From: Panopea generosa
Lineage: Eukaryota > Mollusca > Bivalvia > Adapedonta > Hiatellidae
DNA length: 64,000 nucleotides
Assembly (NCBI GenBank): GCA_029582155.1
Contig: CM055898.1
Coordinates: forward strand, 37,395,458-37,459,457
Direction: 5' to 3'
Shown: positions 14,301 to 53,000 of the stretch, piece after piece
How the letters are laid out: each line of letters opens with the position of its first letter
How positions within the stretch are numbered: position 1 is the stretch's first letter
Program-made: the position numbers and the translations under genes
The notes under the pieces: generated by a model
Database searches by the model: none
What the model saw: only the letters and a program-made list of their open reading frames with translations
Told to the model about the DNA's origin: nothing

Positions 14301-17300
14301 AAACCGTGTAGTTTAAAAATAGTCATAGCAAAAAAACAAGCATGGGGACCTATTTTTTTTTTTTTAGTGTTTTAAACTTGTCTTACTTTAAAGTACTTGT
14401 GTGCAAAATTTAAAAAAGATCTCCGCGCTAGAACTTACTCAAAAAAAACGTCTTTAACTTAGTTATTGTAGTAAAATTGATGACTGGGAAAGCTTCTGAA
14501 AAGTTTCAATCAAATACATTGAGTGGTTGGTGAGATATGGACTTGATGGTACTTGCACGCAAAACTTTAACCAGAATTTAACCAAAATAATCAAAGCGCG
14601 AGATTTAATTCTTGATGGTTTAATTAAATTGAAAACATGAAACTTTTTCTTGAACCATGTTTGACATTGCCTGTTTAAACGAAGAACAGTATTAAAAAAC
14701 GAACCTGCGGCATTTTGACAATATTCTTCATCTGACCCGTCTGTGCAGTCTTTTTCACCGTCACATCTCCAAGTCTGCTTTATGCACATTCCGTCGTTAC
14801 ATTGAAACTGATCGCTGGAACAGGCTGTAGATACAATTTGTTTGATAGGCGTATTGGTTTTATATTTAAATTGCCGAGATGGGTCAGCTTTACCTTATAT
14901 TTGATTTTTATACCATACTGACCAGACGAATGTTAGTATAGTGATACACCTTCTTATGGAATAATTGAATTGATTGATTAAAAATTTAGCATCATTTTTA
15001 TGCCATCGACGGCTAACAGACGAACAGTTAACCTAACCATTGTTTCCTGGGATCCTGTAAGGTTAACAGGTATTTAGCACACCCCATCTTTGCAAGTATT
15101 TGACAATTTTCACAACTGAATCAGTGGTGAAAGACGAATGGTAATGGAATTGTGCTGACACAATGTCGTATATCACTCATCACGGAGACTGTCGCCGGAT
15201 GGGGGATTCGAAATCGAGACCCCGAGACCCCTGGATTGATAGCCAGACGCTCTTCCGACTGAGCTAATCTGACCCGGCGTCTTAAAATAAAACATATGAC
15301 ATACCTCTGTATGCTCTAACAACAATACTACTAGTAGTTCTTATTGATCAACAAAAATACTTGCTCCAATGACGTAATAAATACACCACTGGTCAATAGT
15401 CACAATTCTTGAATAATCACACGATTTGTATACGGACCGAAATGAAATACTAGTACATGCAATGACAGGTTTAAATATTTCTGTTTAATTCAAGAGAATA
15501 TTGTAAATTTCACAATAGCCGTGTGAGAAAAGTGATTGGTTTACCGACTCCGTCAAAAGTAACATTTGAAACAATGCCTTTAGATACGACAATCAAGGAA
15601 TTAAATTGGTTTTACGGCGCGCTCAATAACTGCAATAACGTCAATATCATCATAAGCACATTTAGCTTAATAAAAGGAAAGGAAAACCTGCAGAATCTGT
15701 CATTGCACTAATACATTTTTTAAGTATTGGTGATACTCATCACCTCTCGTTTCACTGCGTTTAACATCGGTGTGTTTTATAACCACAGAGAGATTATTTG
15801 TGGGTAAATTAACATTAAAACCAAAATACCTCCCCCTCCACCCCAACACACACTTTTGTTCTTAACACTTAACAAAACAAAACGTTCTGACATGATGTCG
15901 GTTTTGTTACAATATCAAATAGATTGGAAGGTAAATATAACCATTTGCCATTTGTTACATTTGTCTTTCAAGATTTAAAATTTATCAATACATTAACCAT
16001 TGCTGACAAATAATCCTAATGGGTGTGTCAATACCTAATTTGAGGCACACCATGTACATATAATAACCCTAAATACATCATTTGCATGACTAGAATAATA
16101 TAAATTGGTAAAGCATATTAGTAATACTAATAAAATACTACCTAAAATAATTCCAGCAAAATTTTAAAATATAGTGTAAGCGATAGAGATGATCTTCTGG
16201 TTCAAGATTATTTTATCAATGTTTTAAATATGCGATACCATTATGCACTACCTCCAAATCATTTGGTAATAAACCAGTTCTTGTTAATGGATCTATTGTC
16301 TTGTACCAACATATACAGTTTATTAATGCTGGATATCCTTCTACATTCGAAGTTGTTCAGTTTTATACATATATACAAAACAGACATATGCCATAACTTC
16401 ACCTCAGAGGGCATTATACCGGTACCAGTTCATGAAAAAGGATCTATAGTTGAAATAATCTTGTATCAGCATGCACATGTTAACCACAGCAGGATACCCG
16501 TTCACGAAAATGAAGAAATTACAGAAAATTAAACTTTCATGAAAATCAAAATAATAAATCTAAAAAAAAAAAAAGATTAAACCTTAAAAAACAAAACAGA
16601 TACACTTTAAAAAAGGGGCCAATTTTGCCCCAAGGGTCATGGTTTTGAACAAAGTTGAGAGAGGACCACAGACTGACCGTATTTGTCAAACGTCAAAGCT
16701 CAAGACCTTGTACTACAAACTTTAACATCCTAAAAAAACAAAATTTCTAAGTTCAAAAGGGAAATGATTCCATCAAAATGCAATCACGAGTTATGATTCT
16801 TGTCTCTATGAGTTTCCCAGAGGATGCTGAACACACATGTAAAGCCTCATTCATGTCCAATGACAGGTTGATGAAATAAGTAACATCTCACAAACTTTAA
16901 CCTGGTAAAAACCTCTTACCAAATTGTCTAAATCCAAAAGGGCCATTACTCAGTCAAAATGCAACCCAGAGTTATTGTTTCTATCTCTGTGCGTTCCATT
17001 GATGATGCTGAACACACACGTGAAGTTTCATTCATATCGAATGAGTGGTTGCATAAATATCTTACCTAATAAAAAACTTTTACCTGAAAAATTAAGTCCA
17101 AAAGGGCCATAATTCTGCCAAAATGCTACCAAGAGTATTATGGTTCTTATGTCTTTGAGTTCCATTAATGATCCTGACACACGTGTTGTTTCATTCATAT
17201 CGAATGAGTGATTGCATAGATATCTTACCGGATAATAAACGTTAACCTGAAAAATTAAATCCAGAAATGGCCTGCCAAATGCAACCCAGAGTTTTGGTTC

Positions 17301-20300: not shown

Positions 20301-23300
20301 GCACAATTAGCATTTCTTTAAATTAATATCTCTTGATTCAATATTTTTGGCACCAAATTAAATTGATAAAAATGGAGATAAAAGTGACCAGTCTCGTTCT
20401 TAATCAATTAGGATACGCATTTACCTGATCCGTTTACCTGACGAGGTACCTGCCAGATTTATTAGGATCGTTGACTAAAAAGACAATATATTGAGATCAG
20501 TAAAATACCCCTGGTGGATCTTTAACACGCCATATTTCTTTGTTAATAAATAATTTTGGTACTGAAGTAAAACTGATAAAAACGTTTACATTTTCTAATT
20601 ACTTTTCTTCTGAATTAAAACTATTATCAGTTGCAAACGAAAACTGTTGATTTTACAGCTCAGCAATTAAAGCCGGATAGTTCTAGATTTAGTCGGCCCA
20701 GTGTCAGTATAATGTAACAGATGTGGTAAAGCGTCCGGGTCATACCAAAGCCTTAAAATGGTACCAAAAGCTTCATCGCTTGGCGCTAAACATTTAGAAG
20801 ATATTTCTATGTCTGGTCGGCCCGGTGTCAGGATGATGTGACTGAGTGGGGTATCATACCATATGTCTGCGGCGTGGTACTCCAGTGTGGCAGCGCTCAG
20901 AATACTGTCGCAATATAACTTAAAATTGTTGAAAGCGACGCTACACACAATACAACAGCAACAACATACAGTAATCGTTGATCTGTCAATACAAGCGTTT
21001 TTTGTATTACTTACGAGAATCATTTACTGGCGGTAACGTGTCCTCTGCCGACGTGTTGTAGAGGTCACATGTATCTACGTGTAGTATGGACTGTGATAGT
21101 TCGCTTATAGACAACGCCAACGTATCCATTTGCAACGTTGTGTCATGTATATTTGAATTTAGAAAAGCAACTTCTGTTTCAACATCTCCAATTCTATCGT
21201 TTAACATGCTCGAACTACTACCCGCCGCATTCAGCACCTCGACCTCTCTCTGGAATTCCTTAACCTGATTGGCAAGCTGCTGAAGATCTGTTCCCACTGC
21301 TTGGACCTCGTCAAATGTATTATCTATGTCAGGCCCTATGGACAAAAACAGTGCAAGTTTACACTTTACACCAACAGTTATGGTGTGTGCATTTTAAGTA
21401 GAAGAAATAATAGATCTAGGCATTATTATCATTATTAGCCGAGCGTTATGCCAAAGGTATAGATAGCTCTGCTTTAATATGTTGTCGTGTTCAAGCTTTG
21501 CAGTGTTGATCACCGTCAAAATAATCATACGCGACAGGGACTACTTTTTATTCCACATTTTTTTACATGTATTTAAATAAAGGCAAGAAGAAACAAATCA
21601 TTCAACAAGGAGAAACAAATTATTCAATAAAAATATATTGTGAACATTGTATAATGGCAATTCTTTAAAACAATTGTTGCATAAAATAAACCGTCCAAAA
21701 CGCTATAATAATATTAATCAAATCAAGAAAGGCGTATGAATATTTAATAAAGACCGGCTATCAGTACTTTAAAATACTTTGATTTATGTTAACGTCTCAA
21801 AACTTGAGCTAATGACTAAAGTATGCATTAACCCATTACTTTATATAGACGACTTTGGACACCTCTAATATAGACGCCTTTGGATACCTCTAATATAGAC
21901 GCCTTTGGACACCTAATATAGACGCCTTTTGACACCTCTAATATAGAAGGCTTTTGAATTAGTGGATAAATTATGTTTATATTAACTGACAGAGTGGAAA
22001 ACAATGCAGGAAATGTTCTGATTGCTCATTACGAGCAATATAAACTCTTCTTGCACTGTTTTCAAAGGCCTTCCCTGATTAGTGCAGGAAAACGCGTATC
22101 TATGGAGAAAAGGGTTAAAGAACTCAAGGACATTTATTTCACCCAGTAATAATCAGACATGTGCTACTTTTTTTTCTACCATTTCACTCACAGCTATTAT
22201 ATGAAAAGTGAAGGAACTAGTATGGAAACAAGATCAAATATTGCAAACGTTGACAGTTCAATAACCGCTCTGGGAGAAATTATTAAATTATTTGATAATG
22301 CCGTTTTCATAAATTTTAAGTATCCTGATATTGTTGCATAACTACTATGTAGAGAGTGTTAATATTCATTGATGGAAAATGATAACGCGCACACAATTTG
22401 TTCCCAATTATGAATTTTTTGGCAACTCAAGGGTGTGTAACTCATCCAATAATGATCAGATTGGGATAATTGATAATAGAATCAAACTAAAGAGTTAAAT
22501 AATCATACTAAATAGTTAATGCATCATACTATAGAGTTAAAGAATCATATTATAGAGTTTAAGAATCAAATTATACAGTTTAAGAATCAAATTATAGAGT
22601 TTAAGAATCAAATTATAGAGTTAAAGAATTTTACTATAGAGTTAAAGAATCATATTATAGAGTTTAAGAATCTTACTATAGAGTTAAAGAATCTTACTAT
22701 AGAGTTAAATAATCAAATTATAGAGTTGAAGAATTATACTAGAGAGTTTAAGATCATTTGATGTTAACGAATCGTATTATATAGTTAAAAGGTCACGTTA
22801 TAGTGATAAGGTTCTTGCTATGAGTTAATGGTCACATTGTGAATTAAAAGGTCATATTATAGAGTGAGCCTCAGTATGAATGTGAAGATTGGAGTGAAAA
22901 AAGGTATGAATGTGAAGATTGGAGTGAAGCATAGTATGAATGTGAAGATTAGAATGAACCTCAGTATGAATGTGAAGATTTGAGTGGAACAAAGTATGAA
23001 TGTGAAGTTGGATTGAAACAAGGTATGAACGTGAAGATTGGACTGAAACATAGTATGAATGTGAAGATTGGAGTGAAACAAAGTATAAATGTGAAGTTTT
23101 GGAGTGAAACAAAGTATGAATGTGAAGATTGGAGTGACACAATTATAAATGTGAAAACTGGAGTGAAACAAAGTATGAATGTGAAGTTGGAGTGAAACAA
23201 TTATAAATGTGAAAACTGGAGTGAAACAAAGTATGAATGTGAAGATTGGAGTGAAACTCAGTATGAATGTGAAGATTGGAGTGAAACAAAGTATGAATGT

Positions 23301-25312
23301 GAAGATTGGAGTGAACAAAGTATGCATGTGCAGAAAGGAGTGAACTCAGAATGAATGTGAAGATTAGAGTGAAACTCAGTATGAATGTGAAGGCTGGAGT
23401 GAAACAAAGTATGAATGTGAAGATTGGAGTGAACAAAGTATGCATGTGAAGATAGGAGTGAACTCAGAATGAATGTGAAGATTAGAGTGAACCTCAGTAT
23501 GAATGTGAAGGCTGGAGTGAAACAAAGTATGAATGTGAAGTTGGAGTGAATCAATTATAAATGTGAAAACTGGAGTGAAACAAAGTATGAATGTGAAGAT
23601 TGGAGTGAACAAAGTATGCATGTGAAGATAGGAGTGAACTCAGAATAAATGTGAAGATTAGAGTGAACCTCAGTATGAATGTGAAGATTGGAGTGAAACA
23701 AAGTATGAATGTGAAGATTGGAGCGAAACTCAGTATGAATGTGAAAACTGGAGTGAAACAAAGTATGAAAGTGAAGATTGTAGTAAACAAAGTATGAATG
23801 TGAAGATTGGAGTGAAACAAAGTATGAATGTGAAGATCGGAGTGAAACTCAGTATGAATTTGAAGATTTGAGTGAAACGAGGTATAAATGTGAAGATTGG
23901 AGTTAAACTCAGTATGAATTTGAAGATTGGAATGAAACAAAGTATGAATGTGAGATTGGAGTGAACATCAGTATGAATAGGAAGGTTTATAAATATGTTA
24001 ATGTAATTAAATAATGAGTATTTATTTAAAGATACAAGCCACACTGTTCTGATCGTTATTTAGTGATCAGATTTCTATTCAATTAGTTTAGTTTATACTA
24101 ATTTATTAAGCTCGATGGCGAAGTAAGCACAGAGCTTATATGAATCCTCTTGAACCTGCTTCCTGAACAGAACCAGTACCGAGAATTGTTTATTAGTGAC
24201 CAACAGATCGAGCTGCGGATCGAACCCGCAACCTTTAAAGTAAGAAGCAAACACCATACCCACTGCACTACCGCCACGCTTAAATTCAGTTGGTGACATA
24301 CTGTTCAAATAAATCATATTGTTCAATCTTTAAAATAATTATGATGACCATTTAATAGGGTTTAATCACCGACGTGACTTTATGCTGTAGGGTGGTGTAA
24401 AAAATCGGAAGAAAAGTGTCCGCTTCAGTTACCATTTTGAAGATAACTTTCTAAATTTTTCAGTAAAATATGAGAATTCACGAAACAAAGACAAACGCTC
24501 TCTCTATATACCGGTTATATAAAGTGACCATGCAAAACTTGTGTTTTGGGCAAAAAAGGGCAACGGCATTTTGCGCTAAGTTGAGACAATTATGGCATGG
24601 AGCGGTGCAACTGACAAAAACAATGCACTTTTTTGCAAGTAATATATGCTTTTTCCATGCCTATTTGATATCACCGGTGATGCAGCAGCACTATACAGAG
24701 ACGGCGTACGTCTTTGTTCCGTGAATTTTCATGAAATATTAAGAAAGCGGACATTTTTCTTCCTATTTGTTCACCACTACGCAGCACACTTTGTCATCGC
24801 GCCCCTGCTAAACTGCCAGTAACAAACAAGCCAGAACCAATTTAGACTGCCGAGATACTTCCGCTGATAGCTAGATTAAACAACCAATGTACATTTATGA
24901 ATAGGAATATGAATAGCTGTCATTCTGAGGTGATGTAACTATATGTTAAGACGCTTAAAACAGTAAATAATCGATCGATATATTATATGTATGTACATTT
25001 ATAACATAATGCTGACTTGGGAAGTTTAAGCTGACTGGTTAACAATCCACAATCATGTTATTAACAAAAAGCATTATCTATTAATGAATTAGAATACCTA
25101 CCTTTTACAGAATCTTTGAGATTTAATCGAATCACTCGCCTCAGTTCCCTTTTGGTGGATTTTAAATTTCGCACCAGTTTTTTCTCGAATTGCTTTACGC
25201 TCTCAAACAACGCGTCACCTATTTCTCCGCAATCCTCTGTCGCTCTTACCTCCGACAAACAGCATATTAAACAGAACCATAAGGTTAGTAACCATGGTAT
25301 CTGTTTCCACAT
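2213..25312 (-). CDS. Secreted coiled-coil / multi-LDLa protein gene (3' end outside window)
   Basis: Gene-level entry; exons are listed separately. Coding exons in order are 25102-25312, 21015-21335, 20071-20193, 19166-19285, 14705-14824, 5285-5407 and 2213-2335, giving about 380 residues within the window. Every internal junction is phase 1, so LDLa exons can be gained or lost without changing frame. The product starts with a signal peptide ([18 protein letters not shown], cleavage likely after ..SEVRA), then a charged helical stalk and a heptad-rich coiled coil, then at least five LDLa modules of about 40 residues with six cysteines and the acidic calcium-binding D..DC.DGSDE motif. LDLa modules bind ligands and calcium extracellularly. 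No transmembrane or protease domain is seen, but the last LDLa exon ends in a donor site, so the gene continues left. Three decayed LDLa exons lie in its introns (17489-17608, 9458-9513, 3445-3513). I do not recognise a named ortholog. Confidence 0.8.
3285..3440 (+). mobile_element. SINE family 5 copy
   Basis: Shares 'ttttcccgcatatgctaagt' and the 'gacttcgagcgtgacttgtc' block with copies at 29865-29985 (+), 36225-36420 (-) and 63410-63615 (-). It ends in an A-rich tail directly against the truncated LDLa exon at 3445-3513, so its insertion may have destroyed that exon. Confidence 0.6.
3445..3513 (-). pseudogene. Truncated LDLa exon
   Basis: Reading from a normal acceptor (tttcacag at 3514-3521), the exon starts [20 protein letters not shown] then RCD. 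It stops being LDLa-like at about 3445, where the A-rich tail of a SINE begins. The second half, with the calcium-binding acidic residues and cysteines 5-6, and the donor site are missing, so it cannot be spliced as a complete module. It is closest to LDLa-4 and LDLa-5. Confidence 0.75.
3830..4995. repeat. Tandem array, about 160-180-bp units (family P) with terminal hairpin
   Basis: About six diverged units repeat 'tgtgaccttgacctttgaag', a 'gacaaagttacaggccggac' block and 'gtcatgttgatcatttg'. The array ends with 'cggacgaacgctgcgatt' followed by an imperfect hairpin with C-rich and G-rich arms at about 4967-5010. A shorter copy with the same end lies at 36600-36970. It sits in the intron between LDLa-4 and LDLa-5. 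Confidence 0.75.
5285..5407 (-). CDS. LDLa-4 exon
   Basis: A 123-bp phase 1-1 exon with acceptor tttttacag and donor GTACGTTT. It reads [20 protein letters not shown] then [20 protein letters not shown]. All six cysteines, the Trp before the fourth cysteine and the DGSDE motif are intact. The preceding G from LDLa-3 completes the first Ala codon. Confidence 0.88.
5618..6425 (-). pseudogene. LINE 3' end: ORF2 C-terminus plus repeat tail
   Basis: On the minus strand from about 6420, conceptual translation gives [20 protein letters not shown] and later [20 protein letters not shown]. After a frameshift near 6205 it gives [20 protein letters not shown] and HFICICPCY. The C..C...H....C zinc motif after an RLSAH..R..TGRY segment is typical of a LINE C-terminal region common in marine invertebrates. 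A (CAGAA)n tract at 5618-5643 sits at the expected 3' end as a simple-repeat tail. Frameshifts and stops make it dead. It may be the same family as the RT fragment at 62930-63335 (inference). Confidence 0.75.
6430..7210. other. Intron/intergenic DNA without recognisable content
   Basis: AT-rich sequence in the intron between LDLa-3 and LDLa-4. No coding-like reading frame, domain or clear repeat was seen. Confidence 0.5.
7213..7545 (-). mobile_element. SINE family 1, nearly complete, tRNA-derived head
   Basis: Read on the minus strand, it begins with a tRNA-like head at about 7545 that carries an A-box-like TCTAGTGGTAAAGCG and a B-box GTGGGTTCGATCC. It runs through a conserved body ('gagcgtcaagcgaggaagct', 'tgtctacttgagacagtatt' on the plus strand) and ends in a (CAA)n tail, seen as (TTG)n at 7218-7237. 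Related copies lie at 39160-39465 (same orientation) and 20690-20970 (opposite). It may belong to a V-SINE/RUDI-like molluscan superfamily; that is inference. Confidence 0.8.
7546..8919. other. Intron DNA, nothing recognisable
   Basis: AT-rich sequence between a SINE and a family R element. Short open frames here show no domain, splice context or codon bias that would support a gene. Confidence 0.5.
8920..9455. repeat. Family R tandem-core element, right-truncated
   Basis: The left end 'aagagctgtcgtagggacaa' then 'gcgcgactattcgaatat' is followed by about 2.5 core units like those at 1060-1960. The array stops abruptly against the truncated LDLa exon at 9458-9513, and the right end with CGAATAGTCGAGC is absent. 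Confidence 0.7.
9458..9513 (-). pseudogene. Truncated LDLa exon remnant
   Basis: From an acceptor-like tttttgaag the minus strand reads [19 protein letters not shown] and is then cut off by the core of a family R element. The first three cysteine positions remain, while the calcium-binding half and donor are gone. Flanking sequence to about 9660 ('aaatcagcccaataaaacga') matches that beside the truncated exon at 3445, showing that the two arose by duplication. Confidence 0.7.
10138..10490. repeat. Family R tandem-core element
   Basis: Begins 'aagagctgtcggagccacag', 'cgcgctagactattcgaata', followed by about 1.5-2 core units ending near 10490. It duplicates the left part of the element at 8920. 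Confidence 0.65.
10551..10700 (+). other. Possible decayed plus-strand coding exon
   Basis: After an acceptor-like ctgttactttcag (ending near 10550), one frame stays open for about 48 codons and includes [39 protein letters not shown] and VYCF before a stop. A one-base shift then gives [20 protein letters not shown] to a stop at about 10761. The residue mix looks protein-like, but I recognise no family and there is no partner exon. It could be chance or a gene relic inserted in the LDLa gene intron. Confidence 0.2.
11218..11440 (-). mobile_element. SINE family 2 copy
   Basis: Shares 'tgccatcgagggctaacaga', 'cacttgaatcagtggtgaga' and 'ggcggggattcgaac' with copies at 11815, 14965, 26320, 38325 and 41805. 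The tRNA-like head with a B-box lies at the right end, so the element reads on the minus strand. Confidence 0.7.
11815..11990 (-). mobile_element. SINE family 2 copy, partial
   Basis: Contains 'tcccacttgaatcagtgatt' and a decayed 'gtggggatttgagcttgcaa' B-box region. The left part of the element is missing. Confidence 0.6.
12175..12470 (+). mobile_element. SINE family 3 copy
   Basis: A tRNA-like head on the plus strand has an A-box-like GAGCTCAGTCAGTAGAGCA and a B-box-like GAAAGTTTGATACC. It is followed by 'cagatgggactttaaactga', a block shared with the element at 57865-58020. The body continues to about 12470. Confidence 0.6.
13165..14110. repeat. Tandem array, about 185-bp unit, five copies
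   Basis: The phrase 'ggccattttatgaaaaggg' recurs at about 13171, 13357, 13541, 13727 and 13910. Each is followed by 'gtagaaagaatgaaacaatt' and a T-rich segment. Units are 85-90% alike by eye. The array lies in the intron between LDLa-3 and LDLa-4. Confidence 0.85.
14440..14590. repeat. Single core unit of family R
   Basis: Matches one unit of the 1060-1960 array ('gatgactgggaaagcttctg', 'gagtggttggtgagatatgg') and ends about 110 bp short of the LDLa-3 donor. Confidence 0.65.
14705..14824 (-). CDS. LDLa-3 exon
   Basis: A 120-bp phase 1-1 exon with acceptor gtatctacag and donor GTTCGTTT. It encodes [20 protein letters not shown] followed by [18 protein letters not shown]. Six cysteines and the calcium motif are intact. 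It is almost identical in protein to LDLa-2 (19166-19285) and to the decayed exon at 17489-17608, with matching flanking introns. Confidence 0.88.
14965..15285 (-). mobile_element. SINE family 2, most complete copy
   Basis: The minus-strand head at about 15285 reads like a tRNA, with A-box TTAGCTCAGTCGG and B-box GATTTCGAATCCC. The body includes 'tcatcacggagactgtcgcc' and 'gccatcgacggctaacagac' on the plus strand. This copy defines the family boundaries used for the others. Confidence 0.75.
15286..15960. repeat. Duplicated LDLa intron segment, copy 1
   Basis: The stretch 'accgactccgtcaaaagtaa', 'aacaatgcctttagatacga' through 'gattatttgtgggtaaatta' is repeated at 18420-19030 and 19495-19930. 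It has travelled together with the LDLa exons of the 120-bp subfamily. Confidence 0.8.
16600..17480. repeat. Family R-type tandem-core element abutting a decayed exon
   Basis: Three to four units of about 180 bp repeat 'aaaagggccataattctgcc', 'gtgttccattgatgatgctg'-like and 'tatcgaatgagtggttgcat' blocks. The right end is 'acgccgacgtcgaggcgag' plus 'cgaatagtcgagctt' at about 17463-17480, directly next to the donor side of the decayed LDLa exon. The same core makes up 54785-55570. Confidence 0.75.
17489..17608 (-). pseudogene. Full-length but disabled LDLa exon
   Basis: It has the same 120-bp length and splice positions as LDLa-2 and LDLa-3, but it is dead: the first cysteine codon has become a stop (TGA), the third cysteine is Phe ([10 protein letters not shown]) and the fourth is Arg (KRDSAKDC). 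The DGSHEENC end keeps the last two cysteines with S-D changed to S-H. Inclusion would truncate the protein, so I infer it is skipped. Confidence 0.85.
18420..19030. repeat. Duplicated LDLa intron segment, copy 2
   Basis: Matches 15360-15960 and 19495-19930 ('ggtcaatagacacaatgctt', 'ttaccaactccgttaaaagc', 'cagagagattatttgtgga'). A CA microsatellite at 18900-18937 replaces part of it. Confidence 0.8.
18900..18937. repeat. (CA)n microsatellite
   Basis: An ACAC run with one CATTC interruption, about 38 bp. Confidence 0.9.
19166..19285 (-). CDS. LDLa-2 exon
   Basis: A 120-bp phase 1-1 exon with acceptor gtatctacag and donor GTTCGTTTTG. It encodes [20 protein letters not shown] then [19 protein letters not shown]. 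All six cysteines and the DGSDE calcium motif are intact. It is nearly identical to LDLa-3, pointing to recent duplication. Confidence 0.88.
19495..19930. repeat. Duplicated LDLa intron segment, copy 3
   Basis: The third copy of the segment at 15360-15960 and 18420-19030, sharing 'ggtttaccgactccgttaaa' and 'ctgaatctgtcaatgcacta'. Confidence 0.8.
20071..20193 (-). CDS. LDLa-1 exon
   Basis: A 123-bp phase 1-1 exon with acceptor gtttttaacag and donor GTACGTTTTT. It encodes [20 protein letters not shown] then [20 protein letters not shown]. Six cysteines are present. The usual Ser of DGSDE is Phe here (DGFDE) and the conserved Trp is replaced by Ala (VLAIC), so calcium or ligand binding may differ. 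It is spliced directly after the coiled-coil exon; the split codon makes a Leu. Confidence 0.88.
20690..20970 (+). mobile_element. SINE family 1 copy, head damaged
   Basis: The reverse orientation of the 7213 and 39160 copies, sharing 'ggtatcataccatatgtctg'-like and 'gttgaaagcgacgctacaca' blocks and ending in a CAA-rich tail at 20955-20968. Most of the tRNA head is lost. It lies 45 bp beyond the donor of the coiled-coil exon. Confidence 0.75.
21015..21335 (-). CDS. Coiled-coil stalk exon
   Basis: A 321-bp exon with acceptor tttttgtccatag and donor GTAAGTAATAC, phase 1-1. It encodes 107 residues including [50 protein letters not shown] and [10 protein letters not shown]. Hydrophobic residues recur with heptad-like spacing, which indicates a coiled coil and probable oligomerisation. 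A single Cys (DTCDLYN) lies near the end and could make an inter-chain disulfide (inference). It sits between the signal-peptide exon and the first LDLa exon. Confidence 0.82.
21832..22114. mobile_element. TTAA-flanked MITE (piggyBac-like), copy 1
   Basis: Bounded by TTAA at 21828-21831 and 22115-22118. The ends CCCATTACTTTATATAGACG and (reverse strand) CCCTTTTCTCCATAGATACG form terminal inverted repeats. It shares 'atattaactgacagagtgga' with copies at 52257-52478 and 56741-56947. In this copy the left end is expanded into about four 25-bp repeats ('ctaatatagacgcctttgga'). TTAA targets and CCC-starting ends are features of piggyBac transposons; no transposase is present. It lies in intron 1 of the LDLa gene. 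Confidence 0.85.
22505..22760. repeat. 21-bp minisatellite, about 12 copies
   Basis: Units like 'gagtttaagaatcaaattat' plus one base. Because 21 is a multiple of 3, the plus strand stays open and spells a seven-residue repeat ([14 protein letters not shown]). It lies in an intron, with no sign of being translated. Confidence 0.9.
22860..23985. repeat. 30-bp minisatellite, about 37 copies
   Basis: Units follow 'agtatgaatgtgaagattgg' plus 'agtgaaacaa', with lengths of 28-31. A near-30 period keeps several overlapping frames open on the minus strand ([10 protein letters not shown]-type and [10 protein letters not shown]-type repeats). These are repeat artefacts and not genes. The array is in intron 1 of the LDLa gene, 100 bp from the 21-bp array. 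Confidence 0.92.
24095..24300 (-). mobile_element. tRNA-derived SINE
   Basis: The minus strand from about 24285 has A-box-like GGCGGTAGTGCAGTGGGTA and B-box GGTTGCGGGTTCGATCC, followed by a non-tRNA body. The region does not fold into a complete tRNA, so it is a retroposon and not a functional tRNA gene. Confidence 0.6.
24301..25060. other. Intron 1 DNA without recognisable content
   Basis: Sequence between a SINE and exon 1 of the LDLa gene. It includes a mildly GC-richer stretch (24480-24880) with an 84-codon open frame on the plus strand, but no domain or splice context supports it. Confidence 0.45.
25102..25312 (-). CDS. Exon 1: signal peptide and helical segment
   Basis: Starts at the first ATG in frame (25310-25312); the frame is open about 30 nt further upstream but has no ATG. 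It encodes 70 residues: [20 protein letters not shown] (hydrophobic signal core), EVRA, then [20 protein letters not shown] and [20 protein letters not shown], a strongly charged amphipathic helix. The donor G|GTAGGTATTC ends the exon in phase 1, matching the coiled-coil exon 3.8 kb away. A TTTAAA about 100 bp upstream (near 25415) is a possible weak core promoter element. Confidence 0.82.
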
Positions 25313-47000: not shown

Positions 47001-50000
47001 AGGCTGACACATTTGCAACTTAGATATACAAATATATATACTATCCTATATATTACATGTATAATGTACAATCAAATTAAATTATGATAATTTATAAAAA
47101 ACTGAAGTGTAAAAATACACCAGAAGTTTATTTTTTTTATCAAAATATGACTTGCAAGAACCTTATACATGTACATACATGTATGCAACAACATTTTAAT
47201 GATAATTTAAAAAATATTTATATAAAAAGTCTGTAGTTTACAAGACAAAATTCATAGTTTGATGCAGTACCTAGAGATAGAAAGGGTTTCTGTTCCTTGA
47301 AGAAGCCAGGTTTTCTAGCATTGGTAACAACAATGTCAAAGTATGATCTCCACTCTGGCCTAAAATACACAAAATATCATAAACAGCCAAACTAATCTGA
47401 CACATTGTCCCGATTAGTCCACGTAAATGACTTCAATGTTCTCAGTGCAAATATTACACATTAAATATTTGAGCGACAAAAATTTATAAGGATCTTTCAT
47501 GAATAATATTAGGTTCAGATTAGAATATTGCAATTGGAGGTTTCGCTCAGAACCATCTTTGCTATAGAAGGTCATTCCCCATAACACATTCATCACTGAA
47601 TCCTTTTTTTTTTTTGAATACTACTATTAAAGATTATATTTCTTCTGACCAAATATGTTGATTTTCTTGGAATATCCAAACATCATTATACATACATGCA
47701 TGGGTGTTATGAACATCTCAATCCTAGAGCGAGACATTATACTAACATGCCAAGTGTTATGAACATCTCAATCCTGGAGCGAGACATTATACTAACATGC
47801 CAAGTGTCATGAATATCTCAATCCTAGAGCGAGACATTATACTAACATGGCAAGTGTTATGAACATCTCAATCCTGGAGTGAGACATTATACTAACATGC
47901 CAAGTGTTATGAACATCTCAATCCTGGAGCGAGACATTATACTAACATGACATGTGTTATGAACATCTCAATCCTAGAGCGAGACATCTCAATCCTGGAG
48001 CGAGACATTATACTAACATGCCAAGTGTTATGAACATCTCAATCCTAGAGCGAGACATTATAATAACATGCCAAGTGTTATGAATATCTCAATCCTGGAG
48101 CAAGACATTATACTAACATGCCAAGTGTTATGAACATCTCAATCTTGGAGCAAGACATTATACTAACATGCCATGTGTTATGAACATCTCAATCCTAAGC
48201 GAGACATCTCAGTCCTTGAGCAAGACATTATACTAACATGCCAAGTGTTATGAACATCTCAATCCTAGAGCGAGACATTATAATAACATGCCAAGTGTTA
48301 TAAACATCTCAATCCTAGAGCGAGACATTATAATAACATGCCATGTGTTATGAACATCTCAATCCTGGAGCAAGACATAATACTTACATGCCATGTGTTA
48401 TGAACATCTTAATCATGGAGCAAGACATTATACTAACATGCCATGTGTTATGAACATCTCAATCCTAGAGCGAGACATTATACTAACATGCCAAGTGTTA
48501 TGTACATCTCAATTCTGGAGCGAGACATTATACTAACATGCCATGTGTTATGAACATCTCAATCCTAGAGCGAGACATTATACTAACATGCCAAGTGTTA
48601 GGAACATCTCAATCCTGGAGCGAGAAATTATACTAACACGCCATGTGTTATGAACATCTCAATCCTAGAGCGAGACATTATACTAACATGCCATGTGTTA
48701 TCAACATCTCAATCCTAGAGCAAGACATTATACTAACATGCCAAGTGTTATGAACAACTCAATCCTAGAGCAAAACATTATACTAACATGCCAAGTGTTA
48801 TGAACATCTCAATCCTAGAGCAAAACATTATACTAACATGCCAAGTGTTATGAACATCTCAATACTGGAGCGAGACATTATACTAACATGCCATGTGTTA
48901 TGAACATCTCAATCCTAGAGCGAGACATTATACTAACATGCCAAGTGTTATGAACATCTCAATCCTGGAACAAGACATTATACTAACATGCCAAGTGTTA
49001 TGAACATCTCAATCCTAGAGCAAGACATTATACTAACATGCCAAGTGTTATGAACATCTCAATCCTAGAGCAAGACATTATACTAACATGCCAAGTGTTA
49101 TGAACATCTCAACCCTGGAGCGAGACATTATACTAACATGCATGGGCGTTATGAACATCTCAATCCTAGAGGGAGACATTATACTAACATGCCAAGTGTT
49201 ATGAACATCTCAATCCTAGAGCAAGACATTATACTAACATGCCACGTGTTATGAACATCTCAATCCTAGAGCTAGACATTATACTAACATGCCAAGTGTT
49301 ATGAACATCTCAATCCTAGAGCGAGACATTATACTAACATGCCAAGTGTTATGAACATCTCAATCCTAGAGCGAGACATTATACTAACATGCCAAGTGTT
49401 ATGAACATCTCAATCCTAGAGCAAGACATTATACTAACATGCCAAGTGTTATGAACATCTCAATCCTAGAGCAAGACATTATACTAACGTGCCATGTGTT
49501 ATGAACATCTCAATCCTGGAGCGAGACATTATACTAACATGCCAAGTGTTATGAACATCTCAATCCTGGAGCGAGACATTATACTAACGTGCCAAGTGTT
49601 ATGAACATCTCAATCCTAGAGCGAGACATTATACTAATGTGCCAAGTGTTATGAACATCTTAATCCTAGAGCAAGACATTATACTAACGTGCCAAGTGTT
49701 ATGAACATCTCAATCCTGGAGCGAGACATTATACGAACATGCCAAGTGTTATGAACATCTCAATCCTGGAGCGAGACATTATACTAACATGCCAAGTGTT
49801 ATGAACATCTCAATCCTAGAGCGAGACATTATACTAACATGCCAAGTGTTATGAACATCTCAATCCTAGAGCAAGACATTATACTAACATGCCAAGTGTT
49901 ATGAACATCTCAATCCTAGAACAAGGCATTATACTATTAAACATGCCAAGTGTTACAATCATCTCAATCCTAGAGCAAGACATTATACTAACATGCCAGG

Positions 50001-53000
50001 TGTAATGAACATCCCAATCATAGAGTGAGACATTATACTAGCACATGAATCTTATGAACATCTCAACCCTGGATTGACACATCCTACTTGCAATTCCTAA
50101 CATGTGTGTTTTATGAAATCTGGATCCCAAATTGATACATCTTGCAAACATGAGCATTTTTTGAACATCTAGCAGGAACAGTTTGGGATTATATACCTTG
50201 AAAAATTCTAAAAATTAGTTGCAAATTTCGTTATTGTATCGATACAATATTTATATCAAACCAACCACATAATATATTTACATAACACACAAGAAAAATG
50301 TGCACATATCGTAACACATTACCAGCTGTTCTTGGTTACATACCCTAACACATTACCAACTGTTCTTGGTTACATACCTTAACACATTACCAGCTGTTCT
50401 TGGTTACATACCCTTACAAATTACTAACTGTTCTTGGTTATATACCTTAACACATTACCAACTGTTCTTGGTTACATACCTTAACACATTACCAGCTGTT
50501 CTTGGTTATATACCCTAACACATTACCAGCTGTTCTTGGTAACATACCCTTACAAATTACTAACTGTTCTTGGTTATATACCCTAACACATAACCAGCTG
50601 TTCTTGGTTACATACCATTACACATTACAAGCTGTTCTTGGTTATATACCCTAACACATTACCAGCTGTTCTTGGTTACTCACCCTAACACATTTCCAGC
50701 TGTTCTTGGTTACATACCATTACACATTACAAGCTGTTCTTGGTTATATACCCTAACACATTACCAGCTGTTCTTGGTTACTCACCCTAACACATTTCCA
50801 GCTGTTCTTGGTTACATACCATTACACATTACAAGCTGTTTTTGGTTATATACCCTAACACATTACCAGCTGTTCTTGGTTACTCACCCTAACACATTTC
50901 CAGCTGTTCTTGGTTACATACCATTACACATTTCCAGCTGTTCTTGGTTACATACCATTACACATTACAAGCTGTTCTTGGTTACACACCCTTACACATT
51001 ACAAGCTGTTCTTGGTTACTCACCCTAACACATAACCAGCTGTTCTTGGTTACATACCATTACACATTACCAGCTGTTCTTGGTTACATACCATTACACA
51101 TTACAAGCTGTTCTTGGTTATATACCCTAACACATAACCAGCTGTTCTCGGTTACATAACCTAACACATCACTAGCTGTTCTTGGTTATATACACAACAC
51201 ATTACTAGCTGTTCTTGGTTACATACCCCAACACATTACCAGCTGTTCTTGGTTACATACCCCAACACATTACTAGCTGTTCTTGGTTACATACCCCAAC
51301 ACATTACCAGCTGTTCTTGGTTACATACCCAAACACATTACCAGCTGTTCTTGGTTACATACCCTAACACATTACTAGCTGTGAGCTCAGCAAAATCGAT
51401 ATGTGATGATGTTGTCAGGAATACACATTTATTTTCCTTCTTCAGGTCTTTAAGCCATTGTTTTACCCCCTCACTACAAGGACGGTAAAATTTACTTGAC
51501 ATCTTTTTCACAGTGGGGAAAAAATAACCAGAATTTTCTGAAATTATAGAAAAAACAAAATGTCACAATCTTGTACTATAAATCAAGTACATGTTTAAAG
51601 TATTGTCATCATCAGCAACCAGTGTTGTTTTTTTGTTATTTTGGGGGATGGGAAAAACATTGGCAACAACCACAGATCATCAGCAGTAATTGCAATATAC
51701 AGAAGAAACTCATTATCTCCATAATAGAGGGACTGGCAAAAGACATCAAGATATTCGAATATCGGCATAGATTTTGTCTCAAGATAAATATTTATTTTCA
51801 TCACCTGATAACTGTAGACTTGTCATATGTCAATTGTACTTTCACTTTCATATCACGGTCCATGCAGTAGAATTACACTGTCGTGATAATGCTCATTTCT
51901 GGGTCCATCTTTAAATTGCTTCGCAGCGTGAGATATAAGTTGAGGCTGATTTATTGAATCAAATATTATTATATAATTTACAGGCAATCACCCAATTCAG
52001 TGACCTGATGTTTGCAACTTTCTGTCAGTCATTAAAACTGACTTTTTTGCAGTAGACCAGTAACTTGTGTTGCACTGCACTGTTTTCCACTCTGTCAGTG
52101 AATATAAACATAATTCACCCAATAATTCAAAAGCGTTCTATATCAGGTGTCAAAAGGCATCAATATTAGAGGTGTCCGAAGGCATCAATATTAGAGGTGT
52201 CCAAAGGCGTCTATATTAGAGGTGTCCAAATGCGTCTATATGAAGTAAAGGGTTAACCCTTTACTTCATATAGATGCCTTTGGACATCTCTAATATTGAA
52301 AGCATTAATTCACCACATATCAGCAATGGGTGAATTATGTTTATATTAACTGACAGAGTGGAAAACAGTGCAGGAAGTGTTCAGATTGCTCGTTACGAGC
52401 AATCTGAACTCTTCCTGCACTGTTTTCAGAGGTCTTCTGTGATTGGTGTGGGAAAATGCGTATCTATGGAGTAAAGGGTTAAATGGCCTATTGAGAAGCC
52501 TGGGGCTGTTTAAGACAGGTTTGACTGTATCTATAACATAACGAGTTTAACTGTTAACAACAAACCTCCAAATGCCTGAAATCTATAATTATGATAAAGA
52601 CCACCTGGTACATCATGCCACAGAACTGGACCATAGTCATCCAGGGGAGCACCATTCTGAAATTATAAAAAATTAAAAGGTCTTAATACTTAATCATATT
52701 ATTATGTTTAAAATAAAAGGCTCATTAAACTTCTGAAACGACCGGTTTTGATTGATAATTTCAGTCTGTTCTACTATTCCAGTTCAAAGACTACATGATT
52801 ATTTGACCTCTGAGAAAGAAAGCAAACAAAGATATAAATAAAAGATGCATTATTTTTGAAAATTGCAAACGGGTGTTTGTTTACAAATCAATAGTTGATT
52901 TTTTTTCGATAAAACATATTTGGCATAAAGTGGGTAACCATGAGTACGACGGATGGTTATTTATAAGCATATCAATTTGTGTACTTACAAACATTGGCAA

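Follow-up and report, generated by a model that had tools for sequence, protein, structure and literature searches.

The locus examined here raises a question of origin and a question of use: how did the 5' splice site of a coding exon come to stand at the head of a minisatellite that carries the same site about 30 times, and which of these donors would the spliceosome choose? The exon belongs to a gene on the minus strand of a 64,000-nt stretch of the Panopea generosa genome (assembly GCA_029582155.1, contig CM055898.1, forward-strand positions 37,395,458 to 37,459,457), which is referred to below as the window and whose own numbering is used throughout. In the sequence motifs, a slash marks a splice site or its position within a repeat unit.

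Host gene and the end of exon 7

The minus strand of the window encodes an NT5DC1-type 5'-nucleotidase gene, in which 12 exon-like blocks were recovered in order from 58418 to 41015 with an approximate human NT5DC1 query, exon 7 being block 7. The subfamily, which we take to be NT5DC1, is named after that query. Membership in the wider family was established with the joined exon 6-8 peptide, which matches PF05761 (E = 1.2e-13) over residues 52-117, a span that includes the exon 7/8 junction, and scores 51.3 bits against a curated cut-off of 28.5. A search of the genome (1,474,161,289 bases, or 1.47 Gb, in 39 contigs) with the same peptide returned three matches, all at the window locus, indicating that the NT5DC1-type gene is single-copy. 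No orthologue of this type was found in a scan of viral contigs, and no report of NT5DC1 in bivalves was found in the literature searched.

Exon 6 (52566-52656, minus strand) corresponds to block 6 found with the human query. Exon 7 (51363-51537, minus strand) is 175 nt long, follows the acceptor TTTCAG/AAAATTC, has an open frame and ends in phase 2, and exon 8 (47271-47359, minus strand), at which PF05761 also matches, runs from TTTTAG/GCCAGAG to TCTCTAG/GTACTG. The introns flanking exon 7 measure 1028 and 4003 nt, and the longer of them, intron 7 (47360-51362, minus strand), consists to 86% of two tandem arrays with units of 34 and 50 nt. When exons 7 and 8 are joined at GG/G, a single open frame reads ...TASNVLG/PEWRSYFDIVVTNARKPGFF, or over a longer stretch ...HIDFAELTASNVLGPEWRSYFDIVVTNARKPGFF, and the human NT5DC1 query aligns without gaps through the VLG at the end of exon 7. 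The predicted end of exon 7 at 51363 is supported independently of the array by this in-phase join, by the PF05761 match across the junction and by the order of the blocks found with the human query. The internal GTAATG was rejected as the real donor of exon 7, as it scores -1.58 in unit 1 and its phase is wrong for exon 8. A self-comparison of all 12 exon blocks detected tandem copies at block 7 only; block 3 gave six matches at distant places in the window, which by eye represent its AT-rich flank.

The 34-nt array in intron 7

The 34-nt minisatellite occupies about 50297-51382 on the minus strand. Tandem Repeats Finder (TRF) reported it as one array (50304-51382, period 34, 31.8 copies, 88% matches), and cutting by hand on the minus strand from 51382 gave 32 units, 31 of them full, with unit 32 truncated and unit 6 shorter by 1 nt. 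Unit 1 (51349-51382, minus strand) reads ACAGCTAGTAATGTGTTAGG/GTATGTAACCAAGA and comprises the 3'-terminal 20 nt of exon 7 (51382-51363) followed by 14 nt of intron 7, with the authentic donor AGG/GTATGT, whose first intron base is 51362. It is contiguous with the exon end and in identical register, and it matches the array consensus at 33 of 34 positions, the exception being exon position -14, where it has A instead of G. The first-pass annotation had described the repeat unit as exactly this combination of exon end and intron start, which the hand-cut units and the verified exon end confirm; the unit sequence that it quoted is correct as the consensus of the array, whereas the exact exon end departs from it at that single position. 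Its placement of the authentic donor in the first, most 5' unit likewise agrees with the unit table and with the in-phase join to exon 8. Where it gave 31 units and about 30 downstream junction copies, the hand count is 32 units, the last of them truncated, with 29 downstream GT donors.

Units 2-32 all lie downstream of the authentic donor, on the intron side, and no unit sequence was found in the flank upstream of unit 1. A GT stands at the right place in 30 of the 32 units, that is, in the authentic donor and 29 copies; it is lost in unit 7 (GG/TTATGT) and unit 32 (CG/ATATGT), and unit 6, besides its 1-nt deletion, has a very weak donor. Mean entropy across the units is 0.49 in the donor core (-3 to +6) versus 0.20 at the other positions. 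Measured against units 2-5 and 27-31, unit 1 is no more distant than those units are from one another. In the middle of the array, units 13-23 follow a three-unit higher-order pattern, with an identity of 0.916 at lag 3 against 0.871-0.895 at other lags, as repeated amplification would give. In addition, units 27, 28 and 30 (50343-50499) carry TTAAG/GTAT, whose AGGT could in principle serve as an acceptor or a donor.

A 30-nt pattern of the unit, with up to three mismatches allowed, occurs 29 times in the window, against no occurrence in any of 100 dinucleotide shuffles, and in a search of the 1.47-Gb genome the matches to the 34-nt unit are confined to the window locus; an exact 30-nt piece of the unit consensus is absent from the whole genome. 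An origin from a transposon or dispersed satellite was set aside in view of this confinement to one locus, though such confinement is normal here: the other array of intron 7, a 50-bp repeat of 47 copies with mixed spacings (47704-50070, by TRF) that adjoins no exon, has 35 of 35 genome-wide unit matches at its own array. Because the 50-bp array is equally confined, the restriction of the 34-nt unit to this locus does not by itself prove that it came from the exon.

Several other repeats and frames were observed in the window. One 25-bp unit (AGGTGTCCAAAGGC... and its reverse complement) forms two separate short arrays at 52145-52241 and 21843-21954, the former adjoining an inverted repeat by eye, and the pair looks like a dispersed element that carries its own tandem repeat. 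Adjoining 21-bp and 30-bp arrays occupy 22478-23978, and the latter, with a period divisible by three, consequently keeps long open frames (162 and 138 codons) on the minus strand. An open frame on the minus strand at 14463-14894 has a cysteine pattern that by eye resembles the LDL-receptor class A repeat.

Consequences of downstream donors and choice of donor

Reading past unit 1 in the frame of exon 7 gives YVTKNSW followed by a stop, a TAA that occupies positions 9-11 of unit 2 (51338-51340, minus strand). This TAA precedes the second donor by 12 nt and is the identical first stop for all 29 downstream donors. The suggestion of the first-pass annotation that any later donor would create a premature stop is borne out for 29 of 29. 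Transcripts spliced from these donors should be targets of nonsense-mediated decay, since exons 8-12 follow. All 29 also share with latent splice sites the arrangement of a donor-like site behind an in-frame stop.

Donor strengths were compared with an approximate position matrix. By this matrix, 13 of the 29 downstream copies score higher than unit 1, including AGG/GTGAGT and AAG/GTATGT, and three score equally. The seven units nearest exon 7 all score below unit 1 on the same matrix (p 0.0017 when the units are shuffled freely; 2 of 60 when they are rotated or reversed), a result that is only suggestive because the matrix is approximate, the units are non-independent and the U1 pairing energy disagrees for units 2-5, which it does not rank below unit 1 (-8.1 against -7.8).

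Published human data (PMC9225289) provide a rule for such a choice. Under exon definition, minigenes carrying an identical pair of 5' splice sites were spliced exclusively at the upstream one (PMC9225289), and where donors are nearly equal and the flanking introns long, the donor nearest the acceptor of the exon is preferred (PMC9225289). Without a strength filter, the preference in about 60% of human events is for the downstream 5' splice site, and in 86% the stronger of the sites is the one chosen (PMC9225289). The exon-definition rule predicts unit 1 as the used donor in the window gene, with real uncertainty. The earlier description of the locus as a natural experiment on the choice of the most 5' donor is fair.

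With its variable donor core and two lost GTs, the array does not look like a set of maintained decoys. However, the retention of GT in 30 of 32 units could also reflect maintained function, and taken together the variability of the core and the retention of GT neither demand nor exclude function.

Exon-edge arrays at other loci

A control set of 70 loci was drawn from the same genome by family match, comprising PF05761 (10), WD40 (30) and Pkinase (30). Open frames of 150 codons or fewer were present at only 37 of the 70 loci, so many of those matched by Pkinase may lack an intron close by. Self-comparison of the matched exons flagged three of the 70 (L006, L032 and L074).

Locus L006 (contig C15, about 21288010-21302100), identified by self-comparison and a junction search, is an NT5DC2/3-like paralogue with a donor-side exon-edge array. 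Its exon is 118 nt long, ends in YPESLLEFEYDPTFPI(R) and is in phase with the next exon, which lies in L007. The 96-nt unit consists of the last 65 nt of the exon and 31 nt of intron, and the junction pattern has 147 matches genome-wide with up to three mismatches, those among the matches listed all being on C15. Reading past the donor meets a stop after FVL. Among 16 units compared, the exon part is 97.2% alike versus 99.6% for the intron part. The donor-side anatomy of the window array recurs at this paralogue, within the 70 control loci, and an acceptor-side counterpart is likely present at a WD40 exon in L032 (L032:1-1488; contig C12, 17129497-17131946). There, a 69-nt unit spans the acceptor (intron end and exon start) and its junction has 36 matches. 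L032 is graded as a likely acceptor-side exon-edge array because no upstream exon was found for it and its frame, of 906 codons, remains open across the array, so that a coding repeat is possible. The genome holds at least one further, far larger exon-edge array, that of L006, and probably a third, that of L032. The finding of two more such arrays among only 70 control loci suggests that they may be common in this genome.

At the third flagged locus, two tandem copies of about 124 nt (L074:2191-2442 in gene orientation, 93.6% identical) lie at the end of a kinase frame; this is ambiguous between a two-copy exon-edge repeat and a duplicated gene end and was left out of the array count. Minisatellites at L005:1184-1473 and L059:1-1460 start just inside the intron beside the donor, and both were rejected as exon-edge arrays because their units contain no exon sequence. 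The L059 unit contains AAAGGTAAGT on the strand opposite to the gene.

Tandem arrays with a period of at least 10 are abundant in this genome: they make up 11.3% of the bases in the control loci, 13.5% of those in the window and 28.3% of those in the span of the gene. Matched exons have 137 of 26,769 bases in arrays, versus 26,520 of 210,000 in their flanks. In the NT5DC1-type gene, arrays contain just one of the 24 ends of the exon blocks, against a mean of 6.8 under block rotation; 3.4% of rotations give as few, and most of the block ends are approximate. Exons avoid tandem arrays rather than attract them. A few exon-edge arrays need no dedicated process, because arrays arise everywhere and exons avoid them: arrays would form genome-wide, and the few that survive at exon edges would be those that grow outward.

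Comparison with known systems

To our knowledge, minisatellites of this kind, known as mirages, have so far been reported mainly from amphioxus, and no mirage in molluscs is reported in the titles and abstract openings of the literature matches listed. In amphioxus, mirage minisatellites have been described in Adh3 and in the globin genes BflGb6 and BflGb9 (PMC3087553), and a further mirage gene and TnC are mentioned in PMC3902484, TnC and PGBD5 being counted among the mirage genes. They occur at donors and acceptors, many but not all of the copies keep the splice signal, and RT-PCR showed that regular splicing is undisturbed (PMC3087553). Concerted evolution inside the clusters is also described (PMC3087553; PMC3902484).

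The window array shares with these systems tandem minisatellite copies of an authentic exon-intron boundary, many of which keep the splice signal. Its unit spans the authentic boundary, this boundary is outermost with the copies extending into the intron, and many but not all copies (30 of 32) retain the GT; since it has these structural features, the array can be classed as a mirage at the sequence level. The differences concern scale and evidence. The amphioxus globin mirages have units of 150-160 nt, with three or six copies in BflGb6, whereas the window array has 32 copies of 34 nt and the paralogue 147 junction matches; and regular splicing was demonstrated by RT-PCR in amphioxus, while the present array, from a different animal group, is described from genome sequence.

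Three further systems are partly similar. In human IFI6 (6-16), a minisatellite at the exon end supplies serial donors, as stated in the title of Turri et al. 1995 and in PMC4526556, and the window array shares this arrangement. Downstream units of IFI6 are reported to be used, yielding three mRNA species (PMC4526556), whereas every downstream use in the window array meets a stop. Latent intronic 5' splice sites (PMC3510495) are likewise donor-like sites behind an in-frame stop and are normally unused, but they are scattered unrelated sequences, unlike the 29 in-register copies of an authentic donor seen here. In-gene tandem copies of splice sites are also shared with the model of intron gain by AGGT tandem duplication (PMC3087553) and with the dual-specific sites of UBC (PMC10809524). 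In contrast to the intron-gain model, the window copies lie inside an existing intron, and a new intron was not seen.

Origin of the array and alternative explanations

The intron 7 array is best explained as a mirage-type exon-boundary minisatellite that was amplified from the edge of exon 7 and is mostly a tolerated by-product, with unit 1 still spliced, and we consider this reading probable. Slippage or unequal exchange would have duplicated the donor stretch of exon 7, which was then amplified into the intron; selection on the protein would hold the real exon end while the copies drift. Exon 7, lying between long introns (1028 and 4003 nt), would be recognised by exon definition, which gives preference to the donor closest to the acceptor of the same exon; unit 1 is therefore the expected donor. 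Donors from the fourth onward would also push the length of exon 7 beyond 250 nt. Occasional use of a copy would produce a transcript with the TAA of unit 2, which nonsense-mediated decay would be expected to remove. The array would be tolerated because its copies are mostly ignored under exon definition, and it would mostly be a by-product of a genome rich in minisatellites.

The alternative that deserves most attention, unlikely as we judge it, is a regulated decoy array, in which some downstream donors are used, nonsense transcripts result, and array length or stress tunes the output of NT5DC1. The 29 usable GT donors, some of them stronger than unit 1 by the approximate matrix and all leading to one stop, are consistent with it, as are the activation of human latent donors behind in-frame stops by heat shock (PMC3510495) and the use of the repeat donors in IFI6 noted above; the weakness of the seven exon-near units could further mean selection against near copies. 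However, variability within the 34-nt unit is highest in the donor core, and the order of strength has the limits given with that test, including the disagreement of the U1 energy. Neither a tuning of output through nonsense-mediated decay nor the length polymorphism that the first-pass annotation suggested found support in this analysis. Another alternative is that AG/GT units double as acceptor and donor, so that extra exons or nested introns are occasionally spliced from the array. This agrees with the motif in units 27, 28 and 30 and has parallels in papers reporting the use of AGGT sites of tandem arrays in human UBC (PMC10809524), proposing intron birth from mirages in amphioxus (PMC3087553) and linking tandem repeats at exon-intron boundaries to new introns in human paralogues (PMC2812944). 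The 34-nt unit has no pyrimidine tract, however, and any inclusion past unit 1 meets the unit 2 stop or shifts the frame, so such seeding seems very improbable.

An order of events with the array first, in which the end of exon 7 was recruited from the outer unit of an unrelated minisatellite, can draw on the fact that one genome cannot order the ends of an array in time, unit 1 being equally close to units 2-5 and 27-31. It is nevertheless a slightly fainter prospect even than seeding, because the exon 7 end encodes the conserved stretch of the family up to the expected Gly and runs without indels into exon 8, and because 65 nt of the L006 unit are conserved NT5DC2/3-like coding sequence, which the recruitment of a repeat would not provide. 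Least credible is an assembly artefact, or a repeat collapsed or expanded in assembly. The count of units could be off, as it comes from the assembly sequence, but the differences among units are ordered, three exon-edge arrays with different units lie on different contigs, and the assembly places 1.47 Gb in 39 contigs. Amplification from the exon edge, with the copies tolerated, is the reading that we retain.

Significance

Judged from the literature listings searched, the scale of these arrays (32 and 147 copies) and their recurrence in one non-lancelet genome are new. Exon-edge arrays are also traps for gene prediction and read mapping. Exclusive use of the first donor, out of 30 in the window array and 147 in the paralogue, would make the two genes natural in vivo counterparts of the minigenes with duplicated 5' splice sites on which the exon-definition rule is founded, with donors of graded strength at a graded series of distances. 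Use of downstream donors would instead make the arrays length-variable switches between productive and nonsense mRNA. We tentatively propose, as a possibility that falls short of being the expected outcome, that this lineage makes giant mirages at many genes, with hundreds to thousands of exon edges each carrying tens to more than 100 identical sites, from which the spliceosome would routinely pick the authentic one, and that the turnover of such arrays may feed new isoforms and introns.
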